Shown here: positions 32,797 through 48,583 of the stretch, piece after piece | Layout: each line of letters begins with the position of its first letter | How positions within the stretch are numbered: the stretch's first letter is position 1 | Assembly: GCA_022767345.1 (NCBI GenBank) | Contig: JALEOD010000012.1 | Coordinates: forward strand, 1 to 56,641 | Length of the DNA: 56,641 nucleotides | Direction of reading: 5' to 3' | DNA from: Emergencia sp. | Lineage (GTDB): Bacteria; Bacillota; Clostridia; Peptostreptococcales; Anaerovoracaceae | Position numbers and translations under genes: made by a program | Notes under the pieces: generated by a model | Databases searched by the model: none | Seen by the model: the letters and a program-made list of their open reading frames with translations, nothing else | What the model was told of the DNA's origin: nothing

Positions 32797-34554
32797 ATGA
32801 AAAATAAAAAAAGAGTACAATTAACCATAGACGGCATGGACGTAAACGTGCCTGAGGATTATACCATTTTGCAGGCGGCAAAGCAGGTCAACATCAAAAT
32901 TCCGACCTTATGCTTTCTGAAAGATATCTGTGAAATCGGCTGCTGCCGTATGTGTCTTGTTGAAGTGGAGGGCGCAAAGAACTGGCAGGCTTCCTGCGTG
33001 CAGAAAGTCGCTGACGGCATGGTTGTAAAAACCCACACCCCGGATATTCTCAACTTCAGAAAGAAGAATCTGGAACTGATTCTTTCCAACCACCCGGCAA
33101 TGTGCCAGAGCTGTAACAGAGGATCTACAGGCTGCGAGCTGAAAACTTTAGCAAACACCATGGATACTGAATTTGCAAACTATGCAAAGAATCAGGAAAT
33201 CGTAACTGCAAATCAGGTTATGGAAATCGACAACGGCATTTCCATCATGCGTGACCCGAACCGCTGCATTCTCTGCAGAAGATGTATCAGCGTCTGTCAC
33301 AACGTACAGACTGTCGGCGCAATCGACGTCATCAACAGAGGCTTCAGCACAGTGGTAAGCACCACCTTTAACCGTCCGATTGACGAGTCGAAATGCGTCA
33401 ACTGCGGACAGTGCATCAATGTTTGTCCAACCGGCGCTCTTCAGGAGCACTCCAGCCTTGATGAACTTTGGGAAATCATGAAAGACCCTGCTAAACACGT
33501 TGTAGTGCAGACTGCACCGGCTGTCAGGGCGGCTCTTGGCGAAGAATTCGATATGCCGCTGGGCACAGATGTGACCGGAAAGATGGTAACCGCGCTGCGC
33601 ATGATTGGCTTTGACAAAGTATTTGATACAGATACCGGCGCTGACCTTACGATTATGGAAGAGGGAACAGAACTTCTGGATCGCTTGAACAACGGCGGAA
33701 AGCTGCCTCTGATTACATCCTGCTCACCGGGCTGGATTAAGTTCTGTGAGCATTTCTTCCCGGATATGCTGGATAATCTGTCTTCCTGCAAATCTCCGCA
33801 CGAAATGCTGGGTGCGATGATTAAATCCTACTATGCTGAAAAAGCAGGCATCGACCCTGCAAACATTGTAGTGGTTTCTGTAATGCCTTGTACAGCAAAG
33901 AAATTCGAGGCCCAGAGAGAGGAACTGGCAGCAAACGGCTATCCGGATGTTGATCTGGTTTTGACTACCAGAGAGCTTGCTAAGGCAATTCAGGCTTTCG
34001 GTATCGATTTCCCTGCACTGCCTGACAGCGATTTTGACAATCCTCTTGGTGTTTCCACCGGTGCGGCAACTATCTTTGGCGCGACCGGCGGCGTTATGGA
34101 AGCAGCACTGCGTACTGTGGCTGACATCATTACCGGTGAAAGTTCTGATTCTATCGATTACATGGATGTACGCGGAAAAGAAAAGGGAATCAAGGAAGTG
34201 GAACTTACCATTGGCGATGTGAAATTGAAAGCAGCTGCCGCCCATGGTCTTGGCAACGCAAGAAAGCTGATGGAAAGAATTCAGGCAGGCGAACATTTTG
34301 ACTTTGTAGAAGTCATGGCTTGTCCTGGTGGCTGTGTCAACGGCGGCGGTCAGCCGCAGCAGCCATCTTCTGTCCGCAACTGGATGGATTTGGGCGCAGA
34401 AAGAGCGAAGGCGCTGTATAAGAGTGACCACGAAAGCTTCGTGAGAAAATCTCACAAGAACCCGGTAATCAAAGAAATCTACAAGACTTATCTGGAAAAA
34501 CCAGGCAGTGAAAAGGCGCATCACCTGCTTCACACGCATTATCATGCAAGATAA
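32797..34554 (+). CDS. hydA: [FeFe]-hydrogenase 2 catalytic subunit
   Basis: The 585-residue paralogue of the gene at 28217 has the same N-terminal iron-sulfur domains (CFLKDICEIGCCRMC; HPAMCQSCNRGSTGC; CILCRRCISVC; CVNCGQCINVC). The H-cluster motifs are MPCTAKKFE (about residue 362) and EVMACPGGCVNGGGQP (about 505), but the first is TSCSPGW (about 306) instead of TSCCPxW. A serine therefore replaces one of two neighbouring cysteines that serve as cluster ligand and proton relay. The Cys/Ser alternative is, to my memory, known among clostridial hydrogenases. ATG 32797 has GGAGG 8 bp upstream. Confidence 0.95.
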   Translation: MKNKKRVQLTIDGMDVNVPEDYTILQAAKQVNIKIPTLCFLKDICEIGCCRMCLVEVEGAKNWQASCVQKVADGMVVKTHTPDILNFRKKNLELILSNHPAMCQSCNRGSTGCELKTLANTMDTEFANYAKNQEIVTANQVMEIDNGISIMRDPNRCILCRRCISVCHNVQTVGAIDVINRGFSTVVSTTFNRPIDESKCVNCGQCINVCPTGALQEHSSLDELWEIMKDPAKHVVVQTAPAVRAALGEEFDMPLGTDVTGKMVTALRMIGFDKVFDTDTGADLTIMEEGTELLDRLNNGGKLPLITSCSPGWIKFCEHFFPDMLDNLSSCKSPHEMLGAMIKSYYAEKAGIDPANIVVVSVMPCTAKKFEAQREELAANGYPDVDLVLTTRELAKAIQAFGIDFPALPDSDFDNPLGVSTGAATIFGATGGVMEAALRTVADIITGESSDSIDYMDVRGKEKGIKEVELTIGDVKLKAAAAHGLGNARKLMERIQAGEHFDFVEVMACPGGCVNGGGQPQQPSSVRNWMDLGAERAKALYKSDHESFVRKSHKNPVIKEIYKTYLEKPGSEKAHHLLHTHYHAR

Positions 34555-35035: not shown

Positions 35036-35428
35036 TTATTTTCTCTTGAAATCTTTCGGAGTTACGCAGGTACCAGTAGCTCTTGCAACTACGATTGGTT
35101 CTTCTAAGAAATCAGCAGCGGAAGCGTTGATGTCTTTTCTGGAAACGATAACTTTTCTAGCTTCGAAAGTCATCTTTCTGGAAGTGTTTCCGATCTTAGT
35201 GATTTCGCCGTAAGCTTCGATATAGTCGCCAGCGTAAGTAGGAGCTAAGAATTCTACGTTGTCATAAGCGCAGAACAGACCTTCGTCTCCGTCCAGTTTG
35301 ATTAACAGTTCAGTAGCAACATCGCCGAACAGGTGAACCATGTGTGCGCCGTCAACCAGCTCTCCACCGTAGTGAGCATCTTTAGCGGACATTCTAACTC
35401 TGATTAATGATGTGATTTTCTCTTCCAT
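35036..35428 (-). CDS. kal: 3-aminobutyryl-CoA ammonia-lyase (Kal)
   Basis: The 130-residue hot-dog-fold protein matches Kal of the lysine fermentation pathway, which eliminates ammonia from L-3-aminobutyryl-CoA to give crotonyl-CoA. Typical are the [20 protein letters not shown] segment, [20 protein letters not shown] and the [11 protein letters not shown] strand. It is divergent from the sigma-54 activator, and its promoter is a perfect -24/-12 element (35501-35516, minus) with an operator upstream (35546-35563). It is therefore the most clearly sigma-54-controlled gene here. The ribosome binding site is AAGGAGAAT. Canonical clusters carry kal next to kce; kce is missing in this window. Confidence 0.93.
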
Positions 35429-35500
35429 TTTTAATTCTCCTTATCATGTAAAAAAGTTACTTTTATTATATAACCAAAAAGATTATCTGTAAATAATAAT

Positions 35501-35516
35501 TGCAAATTATGTGCCA
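35501..35516 (-). promoter_or_regulatory. Sigma-54 promoter of kal
   Basis: On the minus strand TGGCAC-ATAAT-TTGCA is an exact -24/-12 match. The transcript would start about 60 nt before the kal ATG. Confidence 0.88.
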
Positions 35517-35545
35517 ATGGGTTATCATTGAAATTACGAAGGGGA

Positions 35546-35563
35546 TGAACCGAAAAAGGTTCA
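35546..35563. promoter_or_regulatory. Operator site 1 for the Kdd-domain activator
   Basis: TGAACCGAAAAAGGTTCA has perfect outer palindrome arms (TGAACC/GGTTCA). It lies upstream of the kal -24 element and 24 bp before the activator's own start codon, so it could serve both activation of kal and autoregulation. Confidence 0.75.
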
Positions 35564-35586: not shown

Positions 35587-37662
35587 ATGACCCATAATTA
35601 TGGAACGAATCGCGTATTGGAGCCGCAGCATGTTTTGCCGACTTCGGCATGGAGACTCGACAACAGCCGCAAATTGGCGCCGGCGGAAATCCGTGTGGAT
35701 ATCAAGCGAATTCATATTGAGGGAACCAGCTTCAAGCAGATTTGCCTGGAAGCTAATGATAACGACCAGCGAATCAAGCAGAAGATTATGGACATTGTAA
35801 TCAGACGCGGAAAACTGCACAATCCGGTTACGGATACAGGAGGCCTGGTATATGGTACAGTATCGGAAATCGGGCCTGAATACGACAATAAAAAAAGTTT
35901 TGCGCCGGGCGAAGAAGTGGTATGCAACGCCTCTCTTGCTTCGGTGCCGATTTATATCGATAAAATTCTTTCCATTGACAGAGCTTTTGGACAGATAGAA
36001 GTAGAGGGTTACGCCATTTTATACGATGAAGTACCGCTGGTTCGAAGACCTGTAGGAATCCCGATTAATCTGCTGCTGTTTGCTTTTAACGAGTCGGGAA
36101 CTCTTTACAGAATCAGTAATACAGCTGTCGGCAAGAGAAAGTTTCTCATCGTAGGAAACAACCTTTTGTCTAACCTCCTCTTTGGCTATGCAGTACGGAA
36201 AGTTGCACGCGAGGACGCGGAAGTGGTGTGTCTGCTGGATAAAAAGACCGACACGGTATTGCGCGGAAAGTCTATCGACGATTTGATTGCAAAGGTGTTC
36301 ACCAAAGTGCATTATGTGGATATTCTGAAACCGATGGAGTGCCTTTCCGGGCTGCAGGCAGACTCGCTGTTTGATTTGTCTATTAACTGTGCAGATATTC
36401 CGGGGGCTGAAACCATCAATATTCTTGCTACCAAAAGCGGCGGAACCGTTGTATTTGCAAATCTGATTAACAACTATAATATCGCTCTTTATATCACGGA
36501 ATCTATTTCCAGACAGCTGGATATCAGGTGTGCCGATGGTTATTTGGAGGCGTATGATGAGTTCGATATTGAAATCGTCAAGGATTTAGTGCCGTATATT
36601 GAAAAGGCTGAAACTACGGACAGAAGTGTGGATGATGACCCATCGTATCCTATTAACAGACAGACTAGACTGATGGAAGTTTCCGGCATGCGGCAAACCT
36701 TGCTTGAGGATTTCGTGTGTGAAAGCAGGGCTATGGCAAGTGTTCTGGATGAAATTTTGACCGTTTCTAAATATGACTGCAACGTGCTGATTACAGGGGA
36801 TACCGGTGTTGGTAAAGAGAAGGTTGCCAATATCATTCACAAAAACAGCAACAGAAAGATGCAGCCTTTTATCAAAGTGAACTGTGCTTCTATCTCGCCG
36901 ACTTTGATAGAATCTGAATTCTTCGGATACGAGAAAGGTGCTTTTACCGGCGCCAGCGCAGCGGGCAAGAAAGGGTATTTTGAACTTGCGGACAACGGGG
37001 ATATTTTTCTTGATGAAATCGGTGAACTGCAGGCGGATATGCAGGCGAAACTCCTTCGAGTGATTCAGGACGGTGAATTTTTTAGGGTTGGGGGCACTAC
37101 GCCGATTAAGACAAATGTGAGGATTCTGTCGGCGACCAACCGGGATCTTGAGGATATGATAGAAGAACAGCGCTTTCGGCGTGACCTTTACTACAGACTT
37201 AATGTAGTCCGCCTTAAAGTGCCAAACCTCAGGGAACGTTCCGGGGATATTCCGGCCTTGGTGAATCATTTTCTTAAAAAGTACAGCGACAAGTTCGAGA
37301 TTCAGAGAAAAATTGATGACGATGCTGTGGAATACCTGAAACAGTGCGAATGGCCGGGCAATATCAGGGAGCTTGAGAACATGGTGCAGAGACTGATGAT
37401 TTCGGCAAAGGGTGAGCAGATTACCCTTCTTGATGTCATGCGGGAACTTCATGCAGAGGTCTTTGAAACCAGCAGTCTGGACTTTGCATCGATACAGGAC
37501 GAGAGCGGAAAAGTGATGGACTTGGAGAAGATGGTAGATAACTTTGAGAAAAACATTATTAAGCACGCCTGCGAAAAATACGGGTCGACCAGAAAAGTCG
37601 CCAAAGCCATTGGAATCAGCCAGACGCAGCTGGTACGAAAAAAGAAAAAGTATGAGCTTTAA
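35587..37662 (+). CDS. Sigma-54 activator with Kdd-derived sensor domain
   Basis: The 691-residue protein has an unusual build. Residues about 1-345 are homologous to L-erythro-3,5-diaminohexanoate dehydrogenase (YGTNRVLEP against YGTHRVISP in Kdd; KLHNPVTDTGGLVYGTVSEI against KHKNPWTGSGGMLIGKVKEI). However, the NAD-binding glycine motif GGGGKSG is replaced by GNNLLSN. Residues about 395-630 are a sigma-54-interacting AAA+ domain with Walker A GDTGVGKE, the GAFTGA loop and Walker B IFLDEIGEL. The C-terminus is a Fis-type helix-turn-helix (STRKVAKAIGISQTQLVRKK). ATG 35587 follows AAAGGAGTG. I infer that it senses a lysine-pathway intermediate and activates kal and kdd through the TGAAC-N7-GGTTC sites. 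Confidence 0.92.
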   Translation: MTHNYGTNRVLEPQHVLPTSAWRLDNSRKLAPAEIRVDIKRIHIEGTSFKQICLEANDNDQRIKQKIMDIVIRRGKLHNPVTDTGGLVYGTVSEIGPEYDNKKSFAPGEEVVCNASLASVPIYIDKILSIDRAFGQIEVEGYAILYDEVPLVRRPVGIPINLLLFAFNESGTLYRISNTAVGKRKFLIVGNNLLSNLLFGYAVRKVAREDAEVVCLLDKKTDTVLRGKSIDDLIAKVFTKVHYVDILKPMECLSGLQADSLFDLSINCADIPGAETINILATKSGGTVVFANLINNYNIALYITESISRQLDIRCADGYLEAYDEFDIEIVKDLVPYIEKAETTDRSVDDDPSYPINRQTRLMEVSGMRQTLLEDFVCESRAMASVLDEILTVSKYDCNVLITGDTGVGKEKVANIIHKNSNRKMQPFIKVNCASISPTLIESEFFGYEKGAFTGASAAGKKGYFELADNGDIFLDEIGELQADMQAKLLRVIQDGEFFRVGGTTPIKTNVRILSATNRDLEDMIEEQRFRRDLYYRLNVVRLKVPNLRERSGDIPALVNHFLKKYSDKFEIQRKIDDDAVEYLKQCEWPGNIRELENMVQRLMISAKGEQITLLDVMRELHAEVFETSSLDFASIQDESGKVMDLEKMVDNFEKNIIKHACEKYGSTRKVAKAIGISQTQLVRKKKKYEL

Positions 37663-37680: not shown

Positions 37681-37698
37681 TGAACATAAAACGGTTCG
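37681..37698. promoter_or_regulatory. Operator site 2 (upstream of kdd1)
   Basis: TGAACATAAAACGGTTCG matches TGAAC-N7-GGTTC, 112 bp before the -24 element of kdd1. Confidence 0.75.
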
Positions 37699-37711: not shown

Positions 37712-37729
37712 TGAACATAAATCGGTTCG
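37712..37729. promoter_or_regulatory. Operator site 3 (upstream of kdd1)
   Basis: TGAACATAAATCGGTTCG, 31 bp after site 2, that is three helical turns, so two dimers would bind the same DNA face. Confidence 0.75.
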
Positions 37730-37792
37730 AAAAAATCGAGAGATACAAGATGAAAAATAATGAACCCATTGGAAACAGTGGGTTTTTATTTT

Positions 37793-37808
37793 TGGCACGC
37801 AATTTGCG
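37793..37808 (+). promoter_or_regulatory. Sigma-54 promoter of kdd1
   Basis: TTGGCAC-GCAAT-TTGCG contains TGGCAC (37793-37798) and TTGC (37804-37807) at the exact -24/-12 spacing, about 55 bp before the start codon. Confidence 0.9.
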
Positions 37809-37861
37809 TTACAGAATGGACGTTGCACAAATACGTTAATATAATGAAAAAGGAGATATAT

Positions 37862-38908
37862 ATGGAAAGCAAAACTTACAAAAAAGGTGACATTTACGGT
37901 ACACACAGAGTTATCAGCCCGAAAGGAGCGCTTCCGCAGCCGGCAGATGTCCTCGATAACACAATGGAAATTTATGATAACGAGGTTTTAATTGATGTTC
38001 ACACCCTGAACATTGACTCCGCTTCCTTTACTGAAATTGAAAAGAGAGCAGAAGGGGACGTAGAAAAAATCAAAGAAATCATTCTGGGTATTGTAGAAAA
38101 GACAGGAAAGCACAAGAATCCTTGGACGGGTTCCGGCGGTATGCTGATTGGTAAAGTAAAAGAAATTGGACCTAACTACGAAGGAGACCTGCGTGTTGGT
38201 GATAAAATTGCAACATTGGTGTCTCTGTCTCTGACACCGCTGAGAATTGATGAAATTAAAGAAGTAAGACCTGACATTGACCAGGTTGATATTAAAGGAC
38301 AGGCGATTTTGTTCCAGTCTGGTCTTTATGGTATCCTGCCAAAAGATATGCCGAAAGAATTGGCTCTGTCTGTTCTTGACGTTGCCGGCGCACCTGCGCA
38401 GACTGCAAAAATCTGCAAGCCCGGCGATACTGTTGTCGTAATGGGCGGCGGCGGAAAATCCGGTATCCTGTGCTGCTGGCAGGCTAAGAAGCAGGTAGGT
38501 ATTAATGGTAAAGTTATCTGCGTTGACGGTTTTAAGAAATCTCTGAACAGAGCAATGTCCGTAAAATGCGCTGACGAATATATGGTTGTTAATGCAACTG
38601 ATGCGGTTGAAATGTACAATGAAATCATGGAAGCAACTGACGGCGAACTGGCTGATGTTGTTATCAACGTAGTTAATATCCCTAATACAGAAATGGCTTC
38701 TATTATGGCATGCAAAGATGGCGGTATGGTATACTTCTTCTCTATGGCAACCAACTTTACAAAGGCAGCTTTGGGTGCAGAAGGCGTTGGTAAGGATGTC
38801 AACATGTTGATCGGAAATGGCTATACGAAAGGACATGCGAACGCAGCGCTGCAGGTTCTCAGGGAAGACGAAAGAATCATGAGATTGTTTGCAGAGCTTT
38901 ACGCATAA
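37862..38908 (+). CDS. kdd: L-erythro-3,5-diaminohexanoate dehydrogenase, copy 1
   Basis: The 348-residue NAD-dependent enzyme oxidatively deaminates L-erythro-3,5-diaminohexanoate to 3-keto-5-aminohexanoate plus ammonia, the third step of lysine fermentation. The N-terminal GTHRVISPKGALPQPADVLD and NPWTGSGGMLIG are characteristic. The Rossmann glycine motif is VVMGGGGKSGILCCW at about residue 196. ATG 37862 is taken since AAAAAGGAGATA precedes it. It is controlled by a sigma-54 promoter with two operators. A second copy follows; a degenerate third relative is the sensor domain of the activator just upstream. Confidence 0.94.
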   Translation: MESKTYKKGDIYGTHRVISPKGALPQPADVLDNTMEIYDNEVLIDVHTLNIDSASFTEIEKRAEGDVEKIKEIILGIVEKTGKHKNPWTGSGGMLIGKVKEIGPNYEGDLRVGDKIATLVSLSLTPLRIDEIKEVRPDIDQVDIKGQAILFQSGLYGILPKDMPKELALSVLDVAGAPAQTAKICKPGDTVVVMGGGGKSGILCCWQAKKQVGINGKVICVDGFKKSLNRAMSVKCADEYMVVNATDAVEMYNEIMEATDGELADVVINVVNIPNTEMASIMACKDGGMVYFFSMATNFTKAALGAEGVGKDVNMLIGNGYTKGHANAALQVLREDERIMRLFAELYA

Positions 38909-38930
38909 GGGAGGCTTAATCCGACTAAAC

Positions 38931-38980
38931 AAAGCGTATTGCTGGCAGATTTTCTGTCGGCAGTGCGGCGCTTTAATGTT
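38931..38980 (+). terminator. Putative terminator or attenuator after kdd1
   Basis: Outer AAAGCG/CGCTTT and inner ATTGCTG-CAGA/TCTG-CGGCAGT arms form a branched hairpin after the kdd1 stop, separating the two kdd transcripts. Confidence 0.5.
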
Positions 38981-39000
38981 GGCGCTGGCTTCTAAAAATG

Positions 39001-39018
39001 TGAACCGAAAATGGTTCT
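39001..39018. promoter_or_regulatory. Operator site 4 (upstream of kdd2)
   Basis: TGAACCGAAAATGGTTCT matches TGAAC-N7-GGTTC. Confidence 0.72.
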
Positions 39019-39032
39019 TGACTTTTAAAAAA

Positions 39033-39050
39033 TGAACACAAAATGGTTCG
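39033..39050. promoter_or_regulatory. Operator site 5 (upstream of kdd2)
   Basis: TGAACACAAAATGGTTCG, 32 bp after site 4, repeating the paired arrangement before kdd1. Confidence 0.72.
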
Positions 39051-39095
39051 ATTGTTAATTTAAAAATTATTTGGAAGTGAGCTCAAATTGGACTA

Positions 39096-39124
39096 TAGAC
39101 ACTAAGCGGCAACAGTTTTATAAT
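39096..39124 (+). promoter_or_regulatory. Possible sigma-A promoter of kdd2
   Basis: TAGACA (39096-39101), 17 bp and TATAAT (39119-39124). A degenerate -24-like TTGGCAT (39147-39153) lies downstream but its -12 reads TTAA rather than TTGC. kdd2 may thus use sigma-A despite having operators. Confidence 0.5.
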
Positions 39125-39196: not shown

Positions 39197-40264
39197 ATGA
39201 AAAAAGGATGCCCTTACGGAACCCACAGAGTTATTTCACCAAAAGGTGTTTTACCGCAGCCAGCAGATGTAATCGACAACACTATGGAAATCTATGATAA
39301 TGAAGTTCTGATCGATGTTCAGACTCTGAACGTTGACTCCGCTTCTTTCACAGAAATCGTTAGAAGATCCTGCGATGGCAAGAAGCCAGCTGATATTGAA
39401 AATTCCCCTGAAGATCAGGAAAAGGTTAAGCAGACAATGATGAACATCGTTGCAAAAGCTGGTAAGCACAAGAACCCTTGGACTGGTTCCGGCGGTATGC
39501 TGCTGGGTACTGTTAAAGAAATCGGACCTAACTATGTTGGAGATCTGAAAGTTGGCGACAAGATTGCTACATTAGTATCCCTGTCCCTGACTCCGCTGAA
39601 GATTGATGAAATCTTAGAGATGAGACCAAGCATTGACCAGGTTGATATCAAAGGGCAGGCTATCCTGTTCCAGAGCGGTATCTACGGAATCATTCCTGAC
39701 GATATGCCGGAAGGACTTGCTTTATCCGCATTAGACGTTGCCGGTGCTCCTGCACAGGCTGCTAAGCTGTGCCAGTCCGGCCAGAAGATTCTGGTTATCG
39801 GCGGCGGCGGAAAATCCGGTCTGCTGTGCTTATACGAAGCAAAGAAGAGAGCTGGCGTAACTGGTTTAGTTGTTTGCGCTGCTGGTTCCCAGAAGTCCGA
39901 AGACAGAGCTAGAGCATTAGATCTGGCCGATGAATACTTCCACATGGACGCTACAGATGCAGTTGGCATGTACAACAAAGCTATGGAATTAACGGGCGGC
40001 GAACTGTTCGACGTAGTTATCAACTGTGTAAACATTGAAAACACTGAAATGGCTTCCATCCTGTCCTGTAAGGATGACGGAACTGTATACTTCTTCTCCA
40101 TGGCTACTTCCTTCACTAAGGCAGCTCTGGGCGCAGAAGGCGTTGGCAAAGACGTTAACATGATCGTTGGTAACGGTTACACTAAGGGTCACGCAGCAAT
40201 CACTCTGCAGTGCCTGAGAGAACACGAAGGACTGAGAAAGTTATTCGAAGAAATGTACGCATAA
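39197..40264 (+). CDS. kdd: L-erythro-3,5-diaminohexanoate dehydrogenase, copy 2
   Basis: The 355-residue enzyme is a close paralogue of the upstream gene: GTHRVISPKGVLPQPADVID, NPWTGSGGMLLG, Rossmann motif VIGGGGKSGLLCLYEAKKRA and a C-terminus ending KLFEEMYA. It carries a small insertion after about residue 60 (RRSCDGKKPADIENSPEDQE) absent from copy 1. Synonymous choice is strikingly biased to the codons used in kamA and kamDE (for example GCT/TCC/CTG), suggesting high expression and that this is the main pathway enzyme. ATG 39197 follows TAGGAGGATG. Confidence 0.94.
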   Translation: MKKGCPYGTHRVISPKGVLPQPADVIDNTMEIYDNEVLIDVQTLNVDSASFTEIVRRSCDGKKPADIENSPEDQEKVKQTMMNIVAKAGKHKNPWTGSGGMLLGTVKEIGPNYVGDLKVGDKIATLVSLSLTPLKIDEILEMRPSIDQVDIKGQAILFQSGIYGIIPDDMPEGLALSALDVAGAPAQAAKLCQSGQKILVIGGGGKSGLLCLYEAKKRAGVTGLVVCAAGSQKSEDRARALDLADEYFHMDATDAVGMYNKAMELTGGELFDVVINCVNIENTEMASILSCKDDGTVYFFSMATSFTKAALGAEGVGKDVNMIVGNGYTKGHAAITLQCLREHEGLRKLFEEMYA

Positions 40265-40590: not shown

Positions 40591-41850
40591 ATGGCAAAGA
40601 GAAATTGGAAAGACATTCCTCTGTTTAAGGATGTTACTGATGAACAGTGGAATGACTGGCATTGGCAGGTTTCCCACAGACTTTCCACAGTGGAAGACAT
40701 TGAAAAGGTTATCAACCTGACTGAACAGGAAAAGGCTGACATCGAAAAGGTTATCGGCGGATTCAGAGTAGGTATCACTCCTTACTATGCATCCCTGATG
40801 GATCCTGACGATCCGAGAGATCCGGTTAGAATGCAGGCAGTTCCTACACTGGCTGAAATGCACAGATCCGAAGCTGACGACGCTGACCCGCTTCACGAAG
40901 ATGCTGACTCCCCGGCTCCTGGTCTGACTCACAGATATCCGGACAGAGTTCTGTTCCTGATCACTGACCAGTGCTCCATGTACTGCAGACACTGCACCAG
41001 AAGAAGACTTGCTGGTGAAACTGACGGTGCTAGATCCAGAGAAGATATCGATGCATGTCTTGATTACATCAGAAGAACACCGGTTGTAAGAGACGTTCTG
41101 CTTTCCGGCGGTGACGCTCTGCTCGTAGAAGATGATACATTAGAATACATCATCAGCGAACTGAGAAAGATTCCTCATGTAGAAATCGTAAGACTTGGTT
41201 CCAGAACTCCGGTTGTAATGCCGATGAGAATTACCGACAACCTGGTTAACATGCTGAAGAAGTATCACCCAATCTGGCTGAACACTCACTTCAACCACCC
41301 GAACGAAATCACAGAAGATTCCGCAGAAGCATGCCGCAAGCTGGCTGACGCCGGTATCCCTCTTGGCAACCAGTCCGTACTGCTCAGAGGCGTTAATGAC
41401 TGTAAGCACATCATGAGAGAACTGGTTCAGAAACTGGTTCAGATCAGAGTAAGACCTTACTACATCTACATCTGCGACCTGTCCGTAGGTATCGAACACT
41501 TCAGAACTTCTGTTGCTAAGGGTATCGAAATCATCGAAGGTCTGAGAGGACATACTTCCGGCTACTGCGTACCTACATTCGTAGTTGACGCTCCTGGCGG
41601 CGGCGGTAAGACTCCGGTAATGCCTCAGTACATCATTTCCGAAACACCTGATAAGGTAATTCTGAGAAACTACGAAGGCGTTATCACTACTTATACTCAG
41701 CCTCGTCTGCCGGATCTGAAGTGCACTTGTGACTACTGCACCGGCAAGAAGACTTATAAGTATCAGGGTGTATCTGCATTAGGCGAAGGATTACAGATCA
41801 AATCTATGGAACCTTCCAACCTGGCAAGACACGAAAGAAACAAACACTAA
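40591..41850 (+). CDS. kamA: L-lysine 2,3-aminomutase
   Basis: The 419-residue radical SAM enzyme converts L-lysine to L-beta-lysine, the first step of lysine fermentation, with [4Fe-4S], SAM and PLP. The cluster motif CSMYCRHC (CxxxCxxC) is at about residues 128-135. The SAM-binding LLSGGDALL lies near 172, the PLP lysine is in DAPGGGGKTPV near 340, and the C-terminal zinc-site cysteines are CTCDYC. Length matches clostridial homologues (about 416). The ATG follows TTAAGGAGATT. It is preceded by the structured leader and followed by a hairpin. The highly expressed codon bias supports a central catabolic role. Confidence 0.97.
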   Translation: MAKRNWKDIPLFKDVTDEQWNDWHWQVSHRLSTVEDIEKVINLTEQEKADIEKVIGGFRVGITPYYASLMDPDDPRDPVRMQAVPTLAEMHRSEADDADPLHEDADSPAPGLTHRYPDRVLFLITDQCSMYCRHCTRRRLAGETDGARSREDIDACLDYIRRTPVVRDVLLSGGDALLVEDDTLEYIISELRKIPHVEIVRLGSRTPVVMPMRITDNLVNMLKKYHPIWLNTHFNHPNEITEDSAEACRKLADAGIPLGNQSVLLRGVNDCKHIMRELVQKLVQIRVRPYYIYICDLSVGIEHFRTSVAKGIEIIEGLRGHTSGYCVPTFVVDAPGGGGKTPVMPQYIISETPDKVILRNYEGVITTYTQPRLPDLKCTCDYCTGKKTYKYQGVSALGEGLQIKSMEPSNLARHERNKH

Positions 41851-41949: not shown

Positions 41950-42966
41950 ATGGGTTTACTTTACGATTTGTCACAAAAATATAAAACGCTTTCCATCGTC
42001 GGCATGGCGAAGAATGCAGGAAAGACCACAGCACTCAACTATCTGATTGAGGAAGCTGACGATGAGGGGATTACCCTGGGCATTACTTCTACCGGCAGAG
42101 ACGGTGAAACTCAGGACTTAGTAACAGGAACCGAAAAACCAAAGGTATATCTTTACGAAGATACCATCGTGTCCGTTCCGACCCAGCTTTATGATTTGGC
42201 GGAAGCAGGACTTGAAATCGTAAAAAAATCAGATTACAGAACTTCTATCGGAGATTTGCTCCTCTGCAGAGTTGCTGACAGCGGCTATGTGCAGATTGCA
42301 GGACCTGTGGCAACTGCCCACACGAAGAAAATGTGCGAAGAAATGTTTGATATGGGATGTGAACTGATTCTCATCGATGGAGCCATCGACAGAAAGTCTA
42401 TTGCTTCACCGGAGACATCGGACGCAATTATCTTATCCACCGGCGCAGTTTTGTCCCGCAGCATGAAGAAAGTAATCGAAGATACGGCGCATATCATCGG
42501 CCTTTATAGTCTTCCTGAACTGGAGGAGTGCAGGGCAAGAACCCTTATTGCAGAACACATGGAGCTGGACAAGATTCTCCTCGTGAAAGGGGATAAGGTT
42601 GAAGCCCTGGATCTTGTAACAGGTCTTGGCGCAAGCCGGTTTATCGATGAAGCCATTGACGATGAAACGGATTATGTATATATTCCCGGCGCATTTACAA
42701 ACAGCGTAATTGCGGATATTAACCCAAATAAGCTGAAAAGAGTGCACTTCGTGCTCAAAGACCCGACCAAGATTTTCATCAATCAGATGGACTTCGGGAA
42801 ACTTCGCAAGAGAAGATTTCAGGTCAGCGTCATGAAGAACATCAAGGTTGCGGCGGTGACAGTCAACCCGATTGCGCCGAGCGGCTACTCTTTTGACCAC
42901 AAGGCACTGCGGGATGCAATGCAGGAAGCGCTGCCGGAAATCCCGGTGATTGACGTTAGAATATAA
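41950..42966 (+). CDS. kamB: KamB, P-loop protein of the lysine cluster
   Basis: The 338-residue protein occupies the position of kamB of lysine-fermenting bacteria. A P-loop is at residues about 18-25 (GMAKNAGKTTALN), followed by STGRDGETQD. A nucleotide-binding fold continues through LILIDGAIDRKS, which has a possible Walker B-like aspartate. Its biochemistry is not established; linkage to the AdoCbl-dependent aminomutase suggests cofactor delivery or enzyme reactivation. The ribosome binding site is weak (CAGGGATAG). kamC follows after 39 bp. Confidence 0.82.
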   Translation: MGLLYDLSQKYKTLSIVGMAKNAGKTTALNYLIEEADDEGITLGITSTGRDGETQDLVTGTEKPKVYLYEDTIVSVPTQLYDLAEAGLEIVKKSDYRTSIGDLLLCRVADSGYVQIAGPVATAHTKKMCEEMFDMGCELILIDGAIDRKSIASPETSDAIILSTGAVLSRSMKKVIEDTAHIIGLYSLPELEECRARTLIAEHMELDKILLVKGDKVEALDLVTGLGASRFIDEAIDDETDYVYIPGAFTNSVIADINPNKLKRVHFVLKDPTKIFINQMDFGKLRKRRFQVSVMKNIKVAAVTVNPIAPSGYSFDHKALRDAMQEALPEIPVIDVRI

Positions 42967-43005
42967 GCTAAGAATAAAGTTAGAAAACAAACAGAAGGAG
43001 GGTTT

Positions 43006-44649
43006 ATGAAACACGGTTCAAACAGGCGGCTTGCCAACGTGAAGACCAGGTCGGAAACAGGTCTTGACTATGTGATGCAGCAGATTGACCTAAATACCCC
43101 TTTTGGTAAAAATATATTAAAAGAAACCAAACCTTTTTTTCCGGGACAGGAAGAAGAACTGCGGGCCGAGCTTGACAAAGTTGAGCATATGATTGCCTTT
43201 GCGAAGGAAAATCAGCGTTCCGTGGAGATGCTTTCCGAAGCGTTCATGGAAGTTAAGGATGCGACATACACCATTGAACGGAGCAGCAGAAACGCACTTT
43301 CCGTAGTGGAACTTTACGAGATTAAGACGCTGCTTCTGATGATGAGAAAAATCAGCAAAATTTGTGCTGATACAGAAACCGAGGTTCCAAAAGAGTTTCT
43401 GCTGGAGCCTACTGAGGAACTTCTGGACGTGCTGGATCCCAGCGGAGACAGAATCAATACTTTCTATATCTATGATGAATTTTCCGAGAAACTGGCGCAG
43501 CTCAGAAAGGAAAAACACAGCATAGAAGTGTCAATCAGAAAGACGCAGAAGGCCAGAAAAGCAGAAATTCAGAAAGAATACGGCATCATTCTGACACCGA
43601 AGTTTGACTGTGCCGTATCAAAGACCGGCGGAGAGCTGGAAAAGTACAAAGCGGTGCCGGATCTGCAGCAGGTGGACGAAGATTACATGACAGTAACCTT
43701 TGCATTGAAGCCTGATGAAAAGATCTACGCACTGACGGAGCAGATGGAAAATCTGGTTACCGAAATCGAGGAGGAGGAAGCTGTCGTGAGACAGCAGCTT
43801 TCCTTAAAAATAGCTGAGTTTGCCGATGTGCTTCTGCGCAACTGCAGACGAATCGGCATGCTGGATGTGGCGCTTGGCAAAGCCCTTTACGCAATTAAAC
43901 ATAGCTGCGTAAAACCGGAAATCACAGATGAGCATATCATTGAGATTGTGGAAGGCAGACAGTCAAAGGTGGAAGATGTGCTGAACTCAAAAGGAAAGAC
44001 TTACTGTCCGGTCAGCATTTCCCTTTCTGACGGCGTTACCTGTATTACAGGCGCCAACATGGGCGGAAAGACCATTTCACTGAAGCTTTCCGGACTGGTG
44101 CCGATTCTGGCGCAGTATGGATTTTTCGTACCTTGTCAGCGTGCGAAAGTGGGACTTTCCAACTATATGCAGATTCTCATCGGTGACAGCCAGTCAGTAG
44201 AACGAGGACTTTCCAGTTTCGGAAGCGAAATGGAAGAACTCAAAGAAATTTTAGATAACAGCGAGGAACGTTCCCTGCTTCTCATCGACGAGATTGCCAG
44301 TGGAACCAATCCGATCGAGGGTCTGGCGCTGACCAGAAGCCTTGTGGATTACCTCAAAGACAAACCGTATATTACCCTCATGACTACGCATTTTGAGGCG
44401 GTGACCGAGGAAAACGGCGTCAAGAATATGCAGGTGAGAGGCCTTGCGGACGTTGACTTCCGTAAACTCGACAGCGAGCTCAAATATGCCAATAGGAAAG
44501 AGCGGATTAATATAATTTCCAAGTATATGGACTATCGTCTGTATATGGTGGAAAAACAGGGACAAATACCAAAAGACGCGTTAAATATCGCGAAGATGTT
44601 AGGCATCAATAAGGAAATTATTGATGGAGCACAAAAATATATAAAATAA
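43006..44649 (+). CDS. kamC: KamC, MutS-like ATPase of the lysine cluster
   Basis: The 547-residue protein ends in a MutS-type ATPase domain: Walker A GANMGGKTIS at about residue 352, Walker B LLLIDEIASGTNPIEG at about 425 and the TLMTTHFEAV sensor at about 460. The N-terminal half holds long helices, as in MutS lever/clamp domains, but there is no mismatch-recognition domain. Such MutS homologues sit next to lysine and ornithine aminomutases, and a role in aminomutase repair or reactivation has been suspected. It is co-transcribed with kamB and kamD (14-bp gap). DNA repair is unlikely in this setting. Confidence 0.85.
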   Translation: MKHGSNRRLANVKTRSETGLDYVMQQIDLNTPFGKNILKETKPFFPGQEEELRAELDKVEHMIAFAKENQRSVEMLSEAFMEVKDATYTIERSSRNALSVVELYEIKTLLLMMRKISKICADTETEVPKEFLLEPTEELLDVLDPSGDRINTFYIYDEFSEKLAQLRKEKHSIEVSIRKTQKARKAEIQKEYGIILTPKFDCAVSKTGGELEKYKAVPDLQQVDEDYMTVTFALKPDEKIYALTEQMENLVTEIEEEEAVVRQQLSLKIAEFADVLLRNCRRIGMLDVALGKALYAIKHSCVKPEITDEHIIEIVEGRQSKVEDVLNSKGKTYCPVSISLSDGVTCITGANMGGKTISLKLSGLVPILAQYGFFVPCQRAKVGLSNYMQILIGDSQSVERGLSSFGSEMEELKEILDNSEERSLLLIDEIASGTNPIEGLALTRSLVDYLKDKPYITLMTTHFEAVTEENGVKNMQVRGLADVDFRKLDSELKYANRKERINIISKYMDYRLYMVEKQGQIPKDALNIAKMLGINKEIIDGAQKYIK

Positions 44650-44663: not shown

Positions 44664-46217
44664 ATGAAAAGCAAATTAAACCTTGACCCAAAAGTAGTTG
44701 ACAGTGCTCGTCAGCATGCGGCAAACATTGCACACGACATGCAGGACTTCATTGACAGACACACTACTGTCAGCACAGAGAGAACCATTCTGAGACTTTT
44801 GGGAGTTGACGGTGTAGACGATGTTGACACACCGCTGCCAAACGTAGTAGTAGATCATCTGAAAGAAGCAGGCGCACTGGCTACAGGCGCAGCTTACTGG
44901 ATGGGTAATGCAATCGTACAGACCGGCAAAGCTCCGCAGGAAATCGCTGAGGAAATTGCTGCAGGCAAACTGGATATCACAAAACTTCCAACCTGCTCTC
45001 AGGCAGAAGCTGCAGAAGCATTAAAACCTGCAATCAAAGCTACTTTCGAAAGAATCGATGCACAGAAGGCAAAGCGTCAGGAATATCTTGACACCATCGG
45101 TGAAGGTTCCGAACCTTACATCTACGTAATCGTTGCTACAGGCAACATTTACGAAGACGTTATCCAGGCACAGGCTGCAGCAAGACAGGGCGCTGATATC
45201 ATCGCTGTAATCAGAACTACTGCACAGTCACTGCTTGACTATGTACCTTACGGTGCAACTACAGAAGGTTTCGGCGGTACATACGCTACACAGGAAAACT
45301 TCAGAATCATGAGAAAAGCACTGGACGAAGTTGGTGAAGAAGTTGGCAGATATATCAGACTCTGCAACTACTCCTCCGGCATGTGCATGCCTGAAATCGC
45401 TGCAATGGGCGCACTGGAAAGACTGGACGTTATGCTGAATGACGCCATCTACGGTATCCTGTTCAGAGACATCAACATGCAGAGAACACTGGTTGACCAG
45501 TTCATGTCCAGAGTTATCATCGGTTACTGCGGCATCATCTTCAACTCCGGTGAAGATAACTACCTGACAACTGACGATGCAATTGAAGCTGCTCATACAG
45601 TAACTGCTTCCCAGTTCATCAACGAACAGTTCGCAGTACTTGCTAACATTCCGGAAAATCAGATGGGTCTGGGTCATGCATTTGAAATGGATCCTTCCAC
45701 TGAGGACGGCTTCCTCCTTGAACTGTCTCAGGCACAGATGGCAAGAGAAATCTTCCCGAATGCAAGACTGAAATACATGCCTCCTACAAAGTTTATGACA
45801 GGCAACATTTTCAGAGGCCACCTGCAGGATGCACTGTTCAACCTGGTAACTGTATGGACGCATCAGTCCTTACTGCTGACCGGTATGCTGACAGAAGCAA
45901 TCCATACACCGCTGATGCAGGACAGATATCTGTCCATCGAAAATGCACGTTACATCTTCAATAACTGCAGACACATCGGTGACGAAGTTGAATTCAAGGA
46001 AGACGGTATCATTCAGAAGAGAGCACAGGAAGTTCTGGGCAAAGCAGACGCGCTCCTTGCTGAAGTAGAAAAAGAAGGTCTCTTCTCCACAATCGAAAAG
46101 GGTATCTTCGGCGGCGTAAAACGTCCGTTTGACGGTGGTCACGGTCTGGAAGGCGTTTCCACTAAGGGTGAAAACTACTTCAATCCGTTTATCGAATTGT
46201 TTATGGATCATGAATAA
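44664..46217 (+). CDS. kamD: Beta-lysine 5,6-aminomutase alpha subunit
   Basis: The 517-residue large subunit of the AdoCbl- and PLP-dependent mutase moves the terminal amino group of L-beta-lysine (or D-lysine) from C6 to C5, giving 3,5-diaminohexanoate. Sequence typical of KamD includes KSKLNLDPKVVDSARQHAAN at the start and the TIM-barrel core (PYIYVIVATGNIYEDVIQAQ; ADIIAVIRTTAQSLLDYVPY; LKYMPPTKFMTGNIFRGHLQ). Its length agrees with the family (about 515). It is followed 17 bp later by the beta subunit. A good AAGGAGAGAG ribosome binding site is present. Confidence 0.97.
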   Translation: MKSKLNLDPKVVDSARQHAANIAHDMQDFIDRHTTVSTERTILRLLGVDGVDDVDTPLPNVVVDHLKEAGALATGAAYWMGNAIVQTGKAPQEIAEEIAAGKLDITKLPTCSQAEAAEALKPAIKATFERIDAQKAKRQEYLDTIGEGSEPYIYVIVATGNIYEDVIQAQAAARQGADIIAVIRTTAQSLLDYVPYGATTEGFGGTYATQENFRIMRKALDEVGEEVGRYIRLCNYSSGMCMPEIAAMGALERLDVMLNDAIYGILFRDINMQRTLVDQFMSRVIIGYCGIIFNSGEDNYLTTDDAIEAAHTVTASQFINEQFAVLANIPENQMGLGHAFEMDPSTEDGFLLELSQAQMAREIFPNARLKYMPPTKFMTGNIFRGHLQDALFNLVTVWTHQSLLLTGMLTEAIHTPLMQDRYLSIENARYIFNNCRHIGDEVEFKEDGIIQKRAQEVLGKADALLAEVEKEGLFSTIEKGIFGGVKRPFDGGHGLEGVSTKGENYFNPFIELFMDHE

Positions 46218-46234
46218 TAAGGAGGTGCAAGGTC

Positions 46235-47029
46235 ATGACAACAGAATGCAAAGCAACTAGCAGTGTAGATTTAACATGCGTAAAGCCTTACGGCGACGCA
46301 CTTAACGACGGTAAAGTTCAGTTAGCCTTCACTCTTCCTGTACCTTACGGTGAAGAAGCTGAAGAATGCGCAAAACAGTATGCAAAGAAATTAGGTTTGG
46401 CTGAGCCAAACGTAGCTTACTACTGCGAACTGACAACCGGATATACATTCTTTAACATTTACGGCTCCGCTCAGCCGACGATCGATTATACAGCAATCAA
46501 CGTACCTAAGGTTGAAGGTACTGTAATGGATCGTGTTGAATGCGGCGAATGGATCGGCGAACACATCGGCAGAGATATCACCGTAGTAGGTGCTTCCATC
46601 GAATCCGATGCACATACCGTAGGTATCGACGCTATCATCCAGATGAAGGGCTTCCACGGTCACTTCGGTCTGGAAAGATTTAAGAATGTTGTTCCTTACA
46701 ACATGGGTTCCCAGGTTCCTTGCGAACAGTTAATCGCAAAAGCAAAGGAAGTAAACGCTGACGCTATCCTGGTATCCCAGACTGTAACACAGAAAGACAT
46801 CCACATCCAGCAGCTGACCAAGATGGTTGAACTGATGGAAGCAGAAGGTCTGCGTGACAAAATCATCCTGACCTGCGGCGGACCTAGAATTTCCCACGAA
46901 CTGGCTCAGGAATTAGGTTACGATGCCGGTTTCGGTCCTGGAAAATATGCAGAACATGTTATGTCCTACATTATGCAGGAAGTGGAAAAGAGAGGCTGGC
47001 AGGACAAGGCAAATATTGCTGACCGCTAA
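46235..47029 (+). CDS. kamE: Beta-lysine 5,6-aminomutase beta subunit
   Basis: The 264-residue small subunit binds adenosylcobalamin base-off/His-on. The B12 motif DxHxxG is DAHTVG at residues 125-130, with SQT and the CGGPRISHELAQELGYDAGF loop further on. K138 in QMKG lies 11 residues after the cobalt-binding H127, matching the H133/K144 spacing of the clostridial enzyme, in which that lysine forms the PLP imine. All key residues are present. The start follows an ideal AAGGAGGTG. After the stop comes a 184-bp gap with small hairpins (AAGTGC/GCACTT at about 47046-47070) before the CoA-transferase genes. Confidence 0.97.
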   Translation: MTTECKATSSVDLTCVKPYGDALNDGKVQLAFTLPVPYGEEAEECAKQYAKKLGLAEPNVAYYCELTTGYTFFNIYGSAQPTIDYTAINVPKVEGTVMDRVECGEWIGEHIGRDITVVGASIESDAHTVGIDAIIQMKGFHGHFGLERFKNVVPYNMGSQVPCEQLIAKAKEVNADAILVSQTVTQKDIHIQQLTKMVELMEAEGLRDKIILTCGGPRISHELAQELGYDAGFGPGKYAEHVMSYIMQEVEKRGWQDKANIADR

Positions 47030-47213: not shown

Positions 47214-47939
47214 ATGATTAACAAAATTATGACTGCTGACGAAGCAGTTGCAGGCGTTAAAGACGGTATGACCATCATGGTCGGCGGCTTTTTGGCAACC
47301 GGTTCTCCGGAAGTTATCATGGACGCATTAGTAAGAAAAGGCGTAAAACATCTGACTGTTATCGGTAACGACGGTGGTCTTGATGCTGGACAGCCTGCCG
47401 GCGAATTTGCAGGAAAGACTGCAAGAGGTATCGGTAAGCTCTTAGAAAACCACATGGTAGATCATCTGATCGCATCCCATATCGGTGTAAACCCTAAAAT
47501 CAACGAACAGATCGCTGAAGGTACTCTGAAATATACACTGGTTCCACAGGGAACTCTGGCTGAAAAGATCAGAGCAGCAGCTTATGGTCTTGGCGGCGTA
47601 CTGACTCCGACCGGCGTAGCGACACCGATGGAGACTGAGCTTGATGAGCTGGGCAGAGAGAAGAAGGTAATGGAAATCGAAGGAAAGAAGTACCTGTTTG
47701 AAATGCCTCTCTACGCAGACTACGCATTCATCAGACCGAGCGTTGCAGATAAGTTTGGTAACTACTACTGCTCCAAAGCTACGAAGAACTTTAACTATGT
47801 AATGGCAGGCGCTGCAAAGCACACTATCATTGCACCTGAAAAGATTGTTGAAGTTGGCGAAATCGATCCGGATTATTTCGCTGTAGCAGGCGTACTGGTA
47901 GAATCTATTGTGGAAGGAGAAAAGAAATGGCAGATTTAA
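47214..47939 (+). CDS. atoD: CoA-transferase alpha subunit (AtoD-like)
   Basis: The 241-residue protein is the alpha subunit of a class I CoA-transferase. Motifs are VGGFLATGSPEVIMDALVRK, DGGLDAGQPAGEFAGKTARG and PQGTLAEKIRAAAYGLGGVL. In lysine fermentation the corresponding enzyme moves CoA from butyryl-CoA to acetoacetate and regenerates acetoacetyl-CoA. It is followed directly, with a 13-bp overlap, by the beta subunit. Substrate assignment rests on gene context. The ribosome binding site is GAAAGGTTG. Confidence 0.92.
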   Translation: MINKIMTADEAVAGVKDGMTIMVGGFLATGSPEVIMDALVRKGVKHLTVIGNDGGLDAGQPAGEFAGKTARGIGKLLENHMVDHLIASHIGVNPKINEQIAEGTLKYTLVPQGTLAEKIRAAAYGLGGVLTPTGVATPMETELDELGREKKVMEIEGKKYLFEMPLYADYAFIRPSVADKFGNYYCSKATKNFNYVMAGAAKHTIIAPEKIVEVGEIDPDYFAVAGVLVESIVEGEKKWQI

Positions 47940-48583
47940 AGACAAGAATCGCGAAGAGATGCGCGAAAGAATTCAAAGATGGAGATTTTATCAATCTGGG
48001 AATCGGTCTGCCGACAATGGTTGCTGACTACCTTCCTGATGATATTATGGTAACCTGCCACTCCGAAAACGGTTTTGCCGGTATTGACGCTGTTGCAGAC
48101 GCTTCCAATCTGGATGTGGATATCATCAACTCCGGCGGTACTTATGTAACTGCTGTTGACAGAGTTAAATATTTTGATACTGCTGAGTCTTTCGGTCTTG
48201 TTAGAGGCGGTCACGTAAGAGCTACAGTACTGGGCGCAATGCAGGTTGCTGAAAACGGTGACCTGGCTAACTGGATTGTACCTGGAAAGAAAGTTGCCGG
48301 CATGGGCGGCGCTATGGACCTTTGCGCAGGTTGTCCTGAAGTCATCATCGTTATGCTGCACACCCAGAAAGGCAACCACAAGATCTTAGAAAAATGCACA
48401 CTGCCTTTAACTGCAGAAAAATGTGTCAGCAAGATCATCACTGAGATGGGCGTTATGGAAGTCAGAGAAGACGGTATCTGGGTAGTAGAACTGCACCCGG
48501 ATTTCACAAAGGAAGACATCCAGGCAGCAACAGGCTGCACACTCCACTTCGATCCTGATATGAAGGTAATGGAAGAGGAATAA
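47927..48583 (+). CDS. atoA: CoA-transferase beta subunit (AtoA-like)
   Basis: The 218-residue beta subunit carries the catalytic glutamate that forms the glutamyl-CoA thioester, in the SENG motif (E47 of HSENGFAGIDAV). Further typical segments are NLGIGLPTMVADYLPDD, FDTAESFGLVRGGHVRATVL and GAMDLCAGCPEVIIVMLHTQ. The start codon lies within the end of the alpha gene, so both are made in equal amounts. With kal it would close the pathway from 3-aminobutyryl-CoA through crotonyl-CoA and butyryl-CoA to butyrate; butyryl-CoA dehydrogenase is not in the window. Confidence 0.94.
   Translation: MADLKTRIAKRCAKEFKDGDFINLGIGLPTMVADYLPDDIMVTCHSENGFAGIDAVADASNLDVDIINSGGTYVTAVDRVKYFDTAESFGLVRGGHVRATVLGAMQVAENGDLANWIVPGKKVAGMGGAMDLCAGCPEVIIVMLHTQKGNHKILEKCTLPLTAEKCVSKIITEMGVMEVREDGIWVVELHPDFTKEDIQAATGCTLHFDPDMKVMEEE

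Follow-up and report, generated by a model that had tools for sequence, protein, structure and literature searches.

The fermentation of lysine is a route to butyrate in anaerobes, gut species included, and the locus considered here raises the question of what controls the genes for this pathway and which signal is read. The window, by which is meant the whole stretch of DNA that was analysed (56,641 nucleotides of contig JALEOD010000012.1 from Emergencia sp., assembly GCA_022767345.1), carries a lysine-fermentation gene cluster, and between kal and the first of two kdd genes it encodes a putative regulator. A sequence-only reading of the DNA had proposed that this protein is a sigma-54 activator whose sensor is a degenerate copy of the pathway enzyme 3,5-diaminohexanoate dehydrogenase (Kdd), retired from catalysis and now reading a pathway intermediate (3,5-diaminohexanoate or the keto acid) so as to control its own pathway. 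The analysis presented here makes it likely that the protein is a lysine-fermentation sigma-54 activator with a sensor derived from a Kdd-type enzyme of the medium-chain dehydrogenase fold, acting by the mechanism proposed below.

Domain organization of the regulator

The N-terminal 345 residues align over nearly their whole length with the two Kdd enzymes encoded downstream, as had been claimed, with 88/332 identities to Kdd1 (27%, E value 1e-40) and 96/345 to Kdd2 (28%, E value 3e-45). The NCBIfam Kdd model NF052381 matches the sensor with 137.9 bits (range 136-138; E value 3e-40), short of the curated cut-off of 200 bits, and the next NCBIfam family follows at an E value of 0.017. Pfam gave no match on residues 1-345 at an E value of 1 or below, and hence no PAS sensor like that of KamR. 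In a sequence search of the PDB the significant chains were all Kdd (7dl0, 7dl1, 7dl3 and 7dl7; E value 3e-26), the sole other match having an E value of 0.96. Structure prediction, a check named beforehand, gave a Kdd fold along the sensor. The AlphaFold model, built from 53 aligned sequences of which two are Kdds, has a mean predicted local distance difference test score (pLDDT) of 89.9 and a predicted template modelling score (pTM) of 0.87, and a Foldseek search with this predicted fold placed seven Kdd chains on top (7dl0_B, TM scores 0.85 and 0.82, E value 1e-28), followed by generic medium-chain dehydrogenases at an E value of 8e-11 and TM scores of about 0.5. Homology to Kdd along the whole of residues 1-345 is confirmed at the level of sequence and predicted fold. 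Where Kdd has its dinucleotide loop, GGGGKSG, the sensor reads GNNLLSN, just as the earlier reading had it, and the loop is also gone in close orthologs. Since the sensor falls below the Kdd cut-off and is without the cofactor loop, it is a Kdd homolog and not a Kdd. As to the landmarks that were said to be shared with Kdd, YGTxRV and NPxTxxGG are largely family-wide, but GPxY was dropped as a diagnostic landmark since many orthologs have GAEY, GEEY or GKAY.

The remainder of the protein had been described as an AAA+ domain with GAFTGA and a Fis-type helix-turn-helix (HTH), a description that is borne out. PF00158 matches residues 378-543 with 226 bits, PF18024 matches the C terminus, and the protein carries GAFTGA, Walker A and B motifs and the arginines of FRRDLYYR. 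By the features tested, residues 373-691 are a sigma-54 activator, and the best NCBIfam match of this part is PrdR, a regulator associated with proline. The full-length model has a pLDDT of 79.6 and a pTM of 0.52, and because of the latter value the packing of the domains is left uninterpreted.

Conservation of the fusion and its subfamilies

When named genomes were scanned with an alignment of 21 sensor rows as query, 593 loci were confirmed, and the best 80 of these, whose titles name Clostridia or other Bacillota, were analysed. The sensor is in frame with an activator in 79 of the 80 loci, the contig ending in the remaining one; the fusion is a conserved family and not a one-off. Where the contig permits the comparison, kal is divergent from the regulator in 68/71 loci and kdd is next downstream in 65/70, with kamA present in 57/60, kamD in 46/49 and kamE in 46/49. 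The arrangement is mostly kal, then the divergent regulator, then kdd and the kam genes. Among the relatives' genomes the sensor was matched in 44 of 61, bare Kdds being counted too, and in a phylum-wide sample it was matched in 78 of 398. Among the phylum-wide matches listed, a frame of fusion length occurs only in genome G130 besides the window genome, the other complete frames being about 340-440 residues long, and among 24 genomes of the same order fused frames were found in two only (G044 and G055, family f9). For the genomes sampled, the wide occurrence of Kdd and the concentration of the fusion in the window's family, f9 and G130 suggest that the enzyme came first. A viral home for the regulator was rejected, no relative being found in a viral contig collection with a single-sequence query, which reaches close relatives only.

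The regulators are divided here into subfamilies under labels coined in this analysis. REG1, to which the window protein belongs, lies beside the kal, kdd and kam genes. REG2 is represented by a second copy in the window genome (contig C54, 29441-31516; 39% identity over the full length) and occurs in relatives as well. In six of seven REG2 loci (L034-L037, L039 and L040) the gene of an NhaC/ArcD-like transporter has an exact sigma-54 element directed towards it, the transporter family being backed by a profile in L034 and L040 and called from length and start elsewhere; in the seventh (L038) the exact element faces other genes. In L035, L037, L039 and L040 the REG2 regulator is directly followed by a protein of about 1590 residues; in L040 this protein includes a part resembling nicotinate-nucleotide adenylyltransferase, and a lactate-dehydrogenase-like gene comes after it. 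REG3, a sister subfamily, comprises the regulators of L041-L043 and L158, all with exact sigma-54 elements. Their neighbours include kdd, kce and kal in three of the four loci and a transporter in all four (profiles were run on the kce and TRAP genes of L041 only, other neighbours being read from translations); the contig of L043 ends after the transporter genes. The cofactor loop of REG3 reads GANGKIG in L043, GAGGKIG in L158 and GAWTKLG in L041 and L042, so that two of the four members appear to have an intact loop and two a half-kept one. With NF052381, L158 scores 219.7 bits, above the cut-off, and L043 scores 190.7. From REG3 to REG1 the sequences look like a graded series, from a sensor that is possibly cofactor-competent to one that is not. 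The L158 sensor, part of an activator encoded at 7777-9843 of that locus, may be an enzyme-regulator hybrid, which automatic annotation could label as Kdd.

An unrooted tree of 32 sensors and 34 Kdds, which adds the window sensor, one REG3 sensor and Kdd1 to an earlier tree of 30 of 94 sensors and 33 of 123 Kdds, splits the two kinds by one branch (support 100/99) that is found in all 200 bootstrap trees. This clean branch argues for a single origin of the sensors at the sampled depth and against their being copies of the local enzyme; derivation of the sensor from the adjacent kdd was rejected, as all 32 sampled sensors lie on one side of the branch. The term "degenerate copy of the pathway enzyme" is therefore right as regards homology to Kdd and wrong as regards copying of the local enzyme, from which the sensors are separated by an old branch. 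"Retired" likewise fits the window protein, which has lost the loop, but may not fit REG3, where the loop is wholly or partly kept and one member passes the Kdd cut-off.

Promoters and operators of the pathway genes

Control of its own pathway by the regulator, as was proposed at the outset, is backed by synteny, by an operator in the gaps between these genes and by putative sigma-54 elements before kal and kdd1 (Table 1), and the pathway genes are well supported as its probable target. The window genome has rpoN, and the exact sigma-54 consensus occurs 20 times in its 2.6 Mb, the reversed control occurring 0 times. Promoter counts cover 78 regulators, the window's own and those of 77 loci; for L063, L083 and L107 no open frame of more than 600 residues was picked. 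Among loci whose regulator bears the GAFTGA loop, a sigma-54 element with at most one mismatch precedes kal in 45/51 and kdd in 57/57, the exact element being found in 44/51 and 40/57, respectively. In a second set of rows that includes outgroups the figures are 57/68 for kal and 61/68 for kdd.

The operator consensus GAACC-N6-GGTTC was found by reading the gaps between kal, the regulator and kdd, so that counts in these gaps are partly circular; the loci whose regulator lacks the GAFTGA loop and the spacing of sites played no part in its discovery. The five operators of the window that have at most one mismatch all fall within three gaps, namely those between kal and the regulator, between the regulator and kdd1, and between kdd1 and kdd2. 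When two mismatches are allowed, the count in the window rises to 31 against 17.5 expected, a number that no shuffle reaches. In loop-bearing loci an operator with at most two mismatches is present in 48/52 kal gaps and 56/59 kdd gaps (about 4% and 8%, respectively, in Markov shuffles), and with at most one mismatch in 34/52 and 50/59. Paired operators 31-32 bp apart, or three helical turns, are found in the window and in six loop-less loci that have two sites before kdd. A narrower pattern, GAACCGAAAANGGTTC, has just two exact occurrences in the genome, both in the window; with up to two mismatches it is counted 12 times genome-wide and its control 11 times, and since these counts are alike, weak sites elsewhere in the genome are meaningless. 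One operator lies 24 bp before the start codon of the regulator itself, which suggests negative autoregulation.

At kal and kdd1 the sigma-54 element is closely followed on its downstream side by a sigma-70-like match, but with 32 such matches in 14 kb against 21 expected, single ones are weak. No sigma-54 element was found in the kdd1-kdd2 gap (38909-39196). Because kdd2 is preceded by two operators and a sigma-70-type promoter, the regulator may act there without sigma-54. An operator and a promoter like those of the window also precede kdd2 in L049-L056, eight further two-kdd loci whose regulator bears the loop, and nine more distant loci with two kdd genes (L086, L088, L095, L096, L099, L102, L104, L106 and L110) have no operator there. 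In the window's clade one regulator may thus serve promoters of both kinds.

Loss of the GAFTGA loop and apparent exchange of promoters

The GAFTGA loop has been lost in 13 of 79 REG1 orthologs, where DDENGI, PDANGEK, GVLSGE, YDLNGR, longer unrelated stretches or a gap take its place. In some of these orthologs the DE of Walker B has become NE or DD, and the HTH is little changed. Among species with names, Aminicella lysinilytica (L065) has a loop-less regulator and Emergencia timonensis (L049) a loop-bearing one. The promoters and operators were counted in loop-less loci L057-L061, L064-L067, L069, L072, L085 and L087. Sigma-54 elements are absent from these (0/13 for kal, 0/11 for kdd), and an operator with at most one mismatch is present in all (13/13 and 11/11). 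A strong -35/-10 promoter precedes kdd in 10/11 loop-less against 3/55 loop-bearing loci. For kal the difference is borderline, with 8/13 against 12/44 (p 0.051), and some of the high sigma-70 scores in loop-bearing loci arise with a -35 hexamer, TTGGCA, that belongs to the sigma-54 element; this score test treats related loci as independent. Fisher tests of the loop against the sigma-54 promoter, in which related loci are likewise counted as independent, give 2e-9 for kal and 7e-13 for kdd.

The REG1 tree has 83 rows, which are 79 REG1 proteins, three outgroup sequences and the window protein (its sequence appears again as L001); in this tree L011 replaces L072, and the copies L009, L010 and L012-L014 replace L057-L061. 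Two independent pairs lie on the starred branches and five on the best tree, which are too few for a sign test at 0.05, and on average the promoter goes the same way as the loop in 1.8 of 2 pairs for kdd and 1.3 of 2 for kal. The best quick tree needs five changes to account for the loop losses, and the starred branches force two. Multiple independent losses are suggested by these changes on the tree together with the lesions, which differ in sequence. Loss of the loop through loss of sigma-54 itself was rejected, as rpoN is present in all six such genomes searched (G001, G003, G008, G010, G012 and G023).

These patterns are read as repeated switching of the sigma factor, apparently with the operator, the HTH and the sensor retained. 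In its widest form the reading would be that of a family of exapted enzymes which read diamino acids and drive sigma-54 or sigma-70 promoters from one operator, with passage from NAD(P)-capable REG3 to incapable REG1 and REG2 and several losses of sigma-54 dependence within REG1; this wider account is tentative, and its chances are put a little below even.

Residues kept and lost in the sensor

Sensors and Kdds were compared column by column, with L044, L045_747 and L046_2224 left out of the 94 sensors and with a Kdd set that excludes K_L026, a sensor interrupted by an internal stop, and K_L107, which lies at a contig end. Three residues of the cofactor loop, its second and third glycine and its lysine, are kept in 0/79 REG1 and 0/9 REG2 sensors and in 122/122 Kdds. 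H8, N43, D45, K194 and H323 (window numbering), which are invariant in Kdds, are all replaced in the window sensor, the D45 position being E and the H323 position Y in 79/79 REG1 proteins. Agreement across the 79 REG1 sensors and the 122 Kdds reaches at least 95% in 31 columns, which include G6, R9, P13, A21, D25, N26, E34, F49, G75, K76, N79, P80, T82, G85, G86, G90, S116, P121, E275, F290, E305 and G318. Identity between sensor and Kdd is 0.33 in substrate-side columns and 0.22 in Rossmann columns, the border between them having been drawn by the analyst.

Proposed mechanism, ligand and alternative explanations

In the mechanism proposed for the window protein, the sensor would bind a lysine-derived beta-diamino acid in the old substrate cleft without NAD. 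Closure of the cleft would be relayed through the 26-residue linker to the AAA+ ring, which, held on the operators, would open the complex of RNA polymerase and sigma-54 at kal and kdd1. Before kdd2 the same operators precede a sigma-70-type promoter, where the protein may act without sigma-54.

The Kdd substrate 3,5-diaminohexanoate needs lysine 5,6-aminomutase for its formation, and beta-lysine, the product of KamA, is a 3-amino acid like the substrate of Kdd. In genomes G044 and G055, which are 100% and 98% complete, kamA (product 67-68% identical) is preceded by REG1-like regulators in tandem and by an exact sigma-54 element, and the kdd, kce and kal genes of these genomes are located elsewhere, beside REG3. 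A protein search for KamD (lysine 5,6-aminomutase alpha) gave no match in G044 or G055, though the search has a first-look filter and may miss divergent KamD, given that in G130 KamE was matched at 51% and KamD not at all. A search for KamE found nothing in G044 and only partial matches of 31-32% in G055. A regulator before kamA in genomes with no KamD match favours beta-lysine or lysine as the ligand, or a changed specificity. Beta-lysine is ranked first as the candidate ligand, with a probability that falls somewhat short of one half; 3,5-diaminohexanoate is ranked second and is rather unlikely, and specificity may have changed in the G044/G055 setting. If the ligand is confirmed, the regulator could be put to direct use as a biosensor, either for beta-lysine or for 3,5-diaminohexanoate. 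As a separate observation, the genomes to which loci L041, L042, L045 and L046 belong (G055 and G044) contain a TRAP transporter along with kdd, kce, kal and kamA, with no KamD match.

Several observations weigh against the proposed mechanism or the regulon assigned to it. The window has three sigma-54 matches, a number reached by 23 of 100 shuffles and so not above chance alone, and the weight therefore rests on the comparison across loci; there, 6 of the 51 loop-bearing loci have no sigma-54 element on the kal side. In L062, L064, L083, L090 and L114 kdd is not next downstream of the regulator, being on the other side of kal in L064 and further on in L090. The Kdds among themselves show the same lean in identity as the sensor does (0.76 in substrate-side against 0.67 in Rossmann columns), which makes the substrate-side excess weak evidence for a kept pocket, and the kept columns include glycines that keep the fold and do not prove a pocket. 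D218 is D in 79/79 REG1 and 9/9 REG2 proteins and in 0/122 Kdds, and it occupies a position at which the adenosine ribose is often held in dinucleotide enzymes. E305 is E in 79/79 REG1, 9/9 REG2 and 3/3 REG3 rows and is aligned with Glu310 of Kdd, a residue described as binding the amide of NADPH (PMC9902596); its invariance is puzzling in a sensor without the cofactor loop. E305 and D218 do not fit a simply dead cofactor site.

It is possible, if unlikely, that the sensor has kept the ability to bind NAD(H) or some other nucleotide and responds to redox state as well as to the amino acid. The invariance of E305 and the new invariance of D218 in REG1 and REG2 would be explained in this way, as would the loops of REG3, kept wholly or partly and in L158 within a sensor that scores above the Kdd cut-off; yet the loop lysine and its second and third glycines are replaced in every REG1 protein. 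Kept cofactor loops also make it plausible that REG3 members with an intact loop are trigger enzymes, that is, working dehydrogenases that also regulate, but for the window protein, in which the loop and all five of the polar residues named above are replaced, this is very improbable.

Alternatively, the sensor could pair with a true Kdd through the old subunit interface and read the occupancy of the enzyme, as the homologous fold and the adjoining of regulator and kdd in 65 of 70 loci would allow. The regulators of G044 and G055 that lie before kamA have no kdd in that cluster, and pairing is considered quite improbable. An origin of the N-terminal region in another family, the likeness to Kdd being due to chance or to generic Rossmann similarity, might be thought to fit the empty Pfam result but is hardly credible, as it is refuted by the distance between the Kdd model and the next family (E values 3e-40 and 0.017) and by the seven Kdd chains listed, which lead the structure that comes next by 16 to 18 orders of magnitude. 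The activator with an NAD-independent sensor of Kdd descent is the explanation preferred here.

Gene content of the locus

The genes kal, kdd1, kdd2 and kamA to kamE all score above NCBIfam equivalog cut-offs, and the kam genes were reportedly named in a paper of 2007. Directly upstream of the lysine cluster, at 26316-34554 of the window, translations reveal two successive sets of genes resembling those of NADH-dependent iron hydrogenases.

Table 1. Features of the regulator, its candidate control sites and the lysine-fermentation genes, in window coordinates
Feature	Position	Strand	Evidence or remark
kal, 3-aminobutyryl-CoA ammonia lyase	35036..35428	-	NF052388, 191 bits, cut-off 160
Sigma-70-like element before kal, TTTACA-17-TATAAT	35465..35493	-	consensus match only
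Putative sigma-54 -24/-12 element of kal, TTGGCACATAATTTGCA	35501..35517	-	no mismatch
Operator GAACCGAAAAAGGTTC, kal-regulator gap	35547..35562	+	
Regulator open reading frame	35587-37662	+	691 residues, ATG at 35587, stop at 37662
Kdd-like sensor domain, residues 1-345	35587..36621	+	sequence, profile, PDB, predicted fold
GNNLLSN replacing GGGGKSG, residues 190-196	36154..36174	+	
Disordered linker, residues 347-372	36625..36702	+	pLDDT <50 in full-length model
AAA+ sigma-54 interaction domain and lid, residues 373-625	36703..37461	+	
GAFTGA loop, residues 451-456	36937..36954	+	
Fis-type HTH (PF18024), residues 644-691	37516..37659	+	Pfam
Operator GAACATAAAACGGTTC before kdd1	37682..37697	+	
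Operator GAACATAAATCGGTTC before kdd1	37713..37728	+	31 bp from the GAACATAAAACGGTTC site
Putative sigma-54 -24/-12 element of kdd1, TTGGCACGCAATTTGCG	37792..37808	+	one mismatch
Sigma-70-like element before kdd1, TGGACG-17-TATAAT	37817..37845	+	consensus match only
kdd1, 3,5-diaminohexanoate dehydrogenase	37862..38908	+	NF052381, 259 bits
Operator GAACCGAAAATGGTTC before kdd2	39002..39017	+	
Operator GAACACAAAATGGTTC before kdd2	39034..39049	+	
Sigma-70-like promoter before kdd2, TAGACA-17-TATAAT	39096..39124	+	
kdd2	39197..40264	+	NF052381, 237 bits
kamA, lysine 2,3-aminomutase	40591..41850	+	TIGR03820, above cut-off
kamB and kamC, lysine 5,6-aminomutase reactivase	41950..44649	+	NF052386, NF052383
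kamD and kamE, lysine 5,6-aminomutase	44664..47029	+	NF052384, NF052385
Two CoA-transferase subunits	47214..48583	+	TIGR02429, TIGR02428

Comparison with known systems

The sequence-only reading knew of no described regulator family of this kind, which agrees with the open-licence literature, where no such regulator was found described and nothing was found on the regulation of lysine fermentation in these bacteria (most subscription papers were outside the scope of that search). As far as this literature shows, the protein combines an undescribed class of sensor with a known kind of regulator. Like other sigma-54 enhancer-binding proteins, PrdR included, it has an AAA+ domain with GAFTGA, a Fis-type HTH and an inverted-repeat operator upstream of a -24/-12 element, and is tied to amino-acid catabolism (PMC6615313), but its sensor has a dehydrogenase fold. 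The parts seen of that survey, which covers 490 activators in 57 species of Clostridiales, list PAS, GAF, HPr, PrpR_N, ACT, CBS, Fer4, Fe-hydrogenase, FeS, V4R and receiver domains as sensors and name no Kdd- or dehydrogenase-type sensor, nor does the word lysine occur in its main text (PMC6615313). KamR of Bacillus thuringiensis, described as a sigma-54 activator of kamA with a PAS sensor (PMC4428206), is likewise tied to lysine 2,3-aminomutase but differs in its sensor and in its operon.

With Kdd itself (L-erythro-3,5-diaminohexanoate dehydrogenase; PDB 7dl0, 7dl1, 7dl3 and 7dl7) the sensor shares the fold along its length, YGxxRV, GK, NPxTxxGG and the conserved Glu; it differs in the replaced cofactor loop and several replaced invariant polar residues, in the fused activator and in its separate branch of the tree. 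Among living relatives there are loops that look fit to bind NAD and loops that do not, and since crystal structures of Kdd are available, the transition from enzyme to sensor is open to a direct test. A pathway enzyme or enzyme fold has also turned sensor in Gal3 of yeast and in MocR/GabR, but these have kinase and aminotransferase folds and are not sigma-54 activators. TyrR and DhaR are proteins of the activator family that work with sigma-70, and they act without contact to sigma-54 as the loop-less orthologs presumably do. The difference is that in the present family the loop and the sigma-54 element are lost together within the same orthologous locus, which makes the loop-less orthologs a natural experiment in which a promoter changes its sigma factor and keeps its signal and operator.

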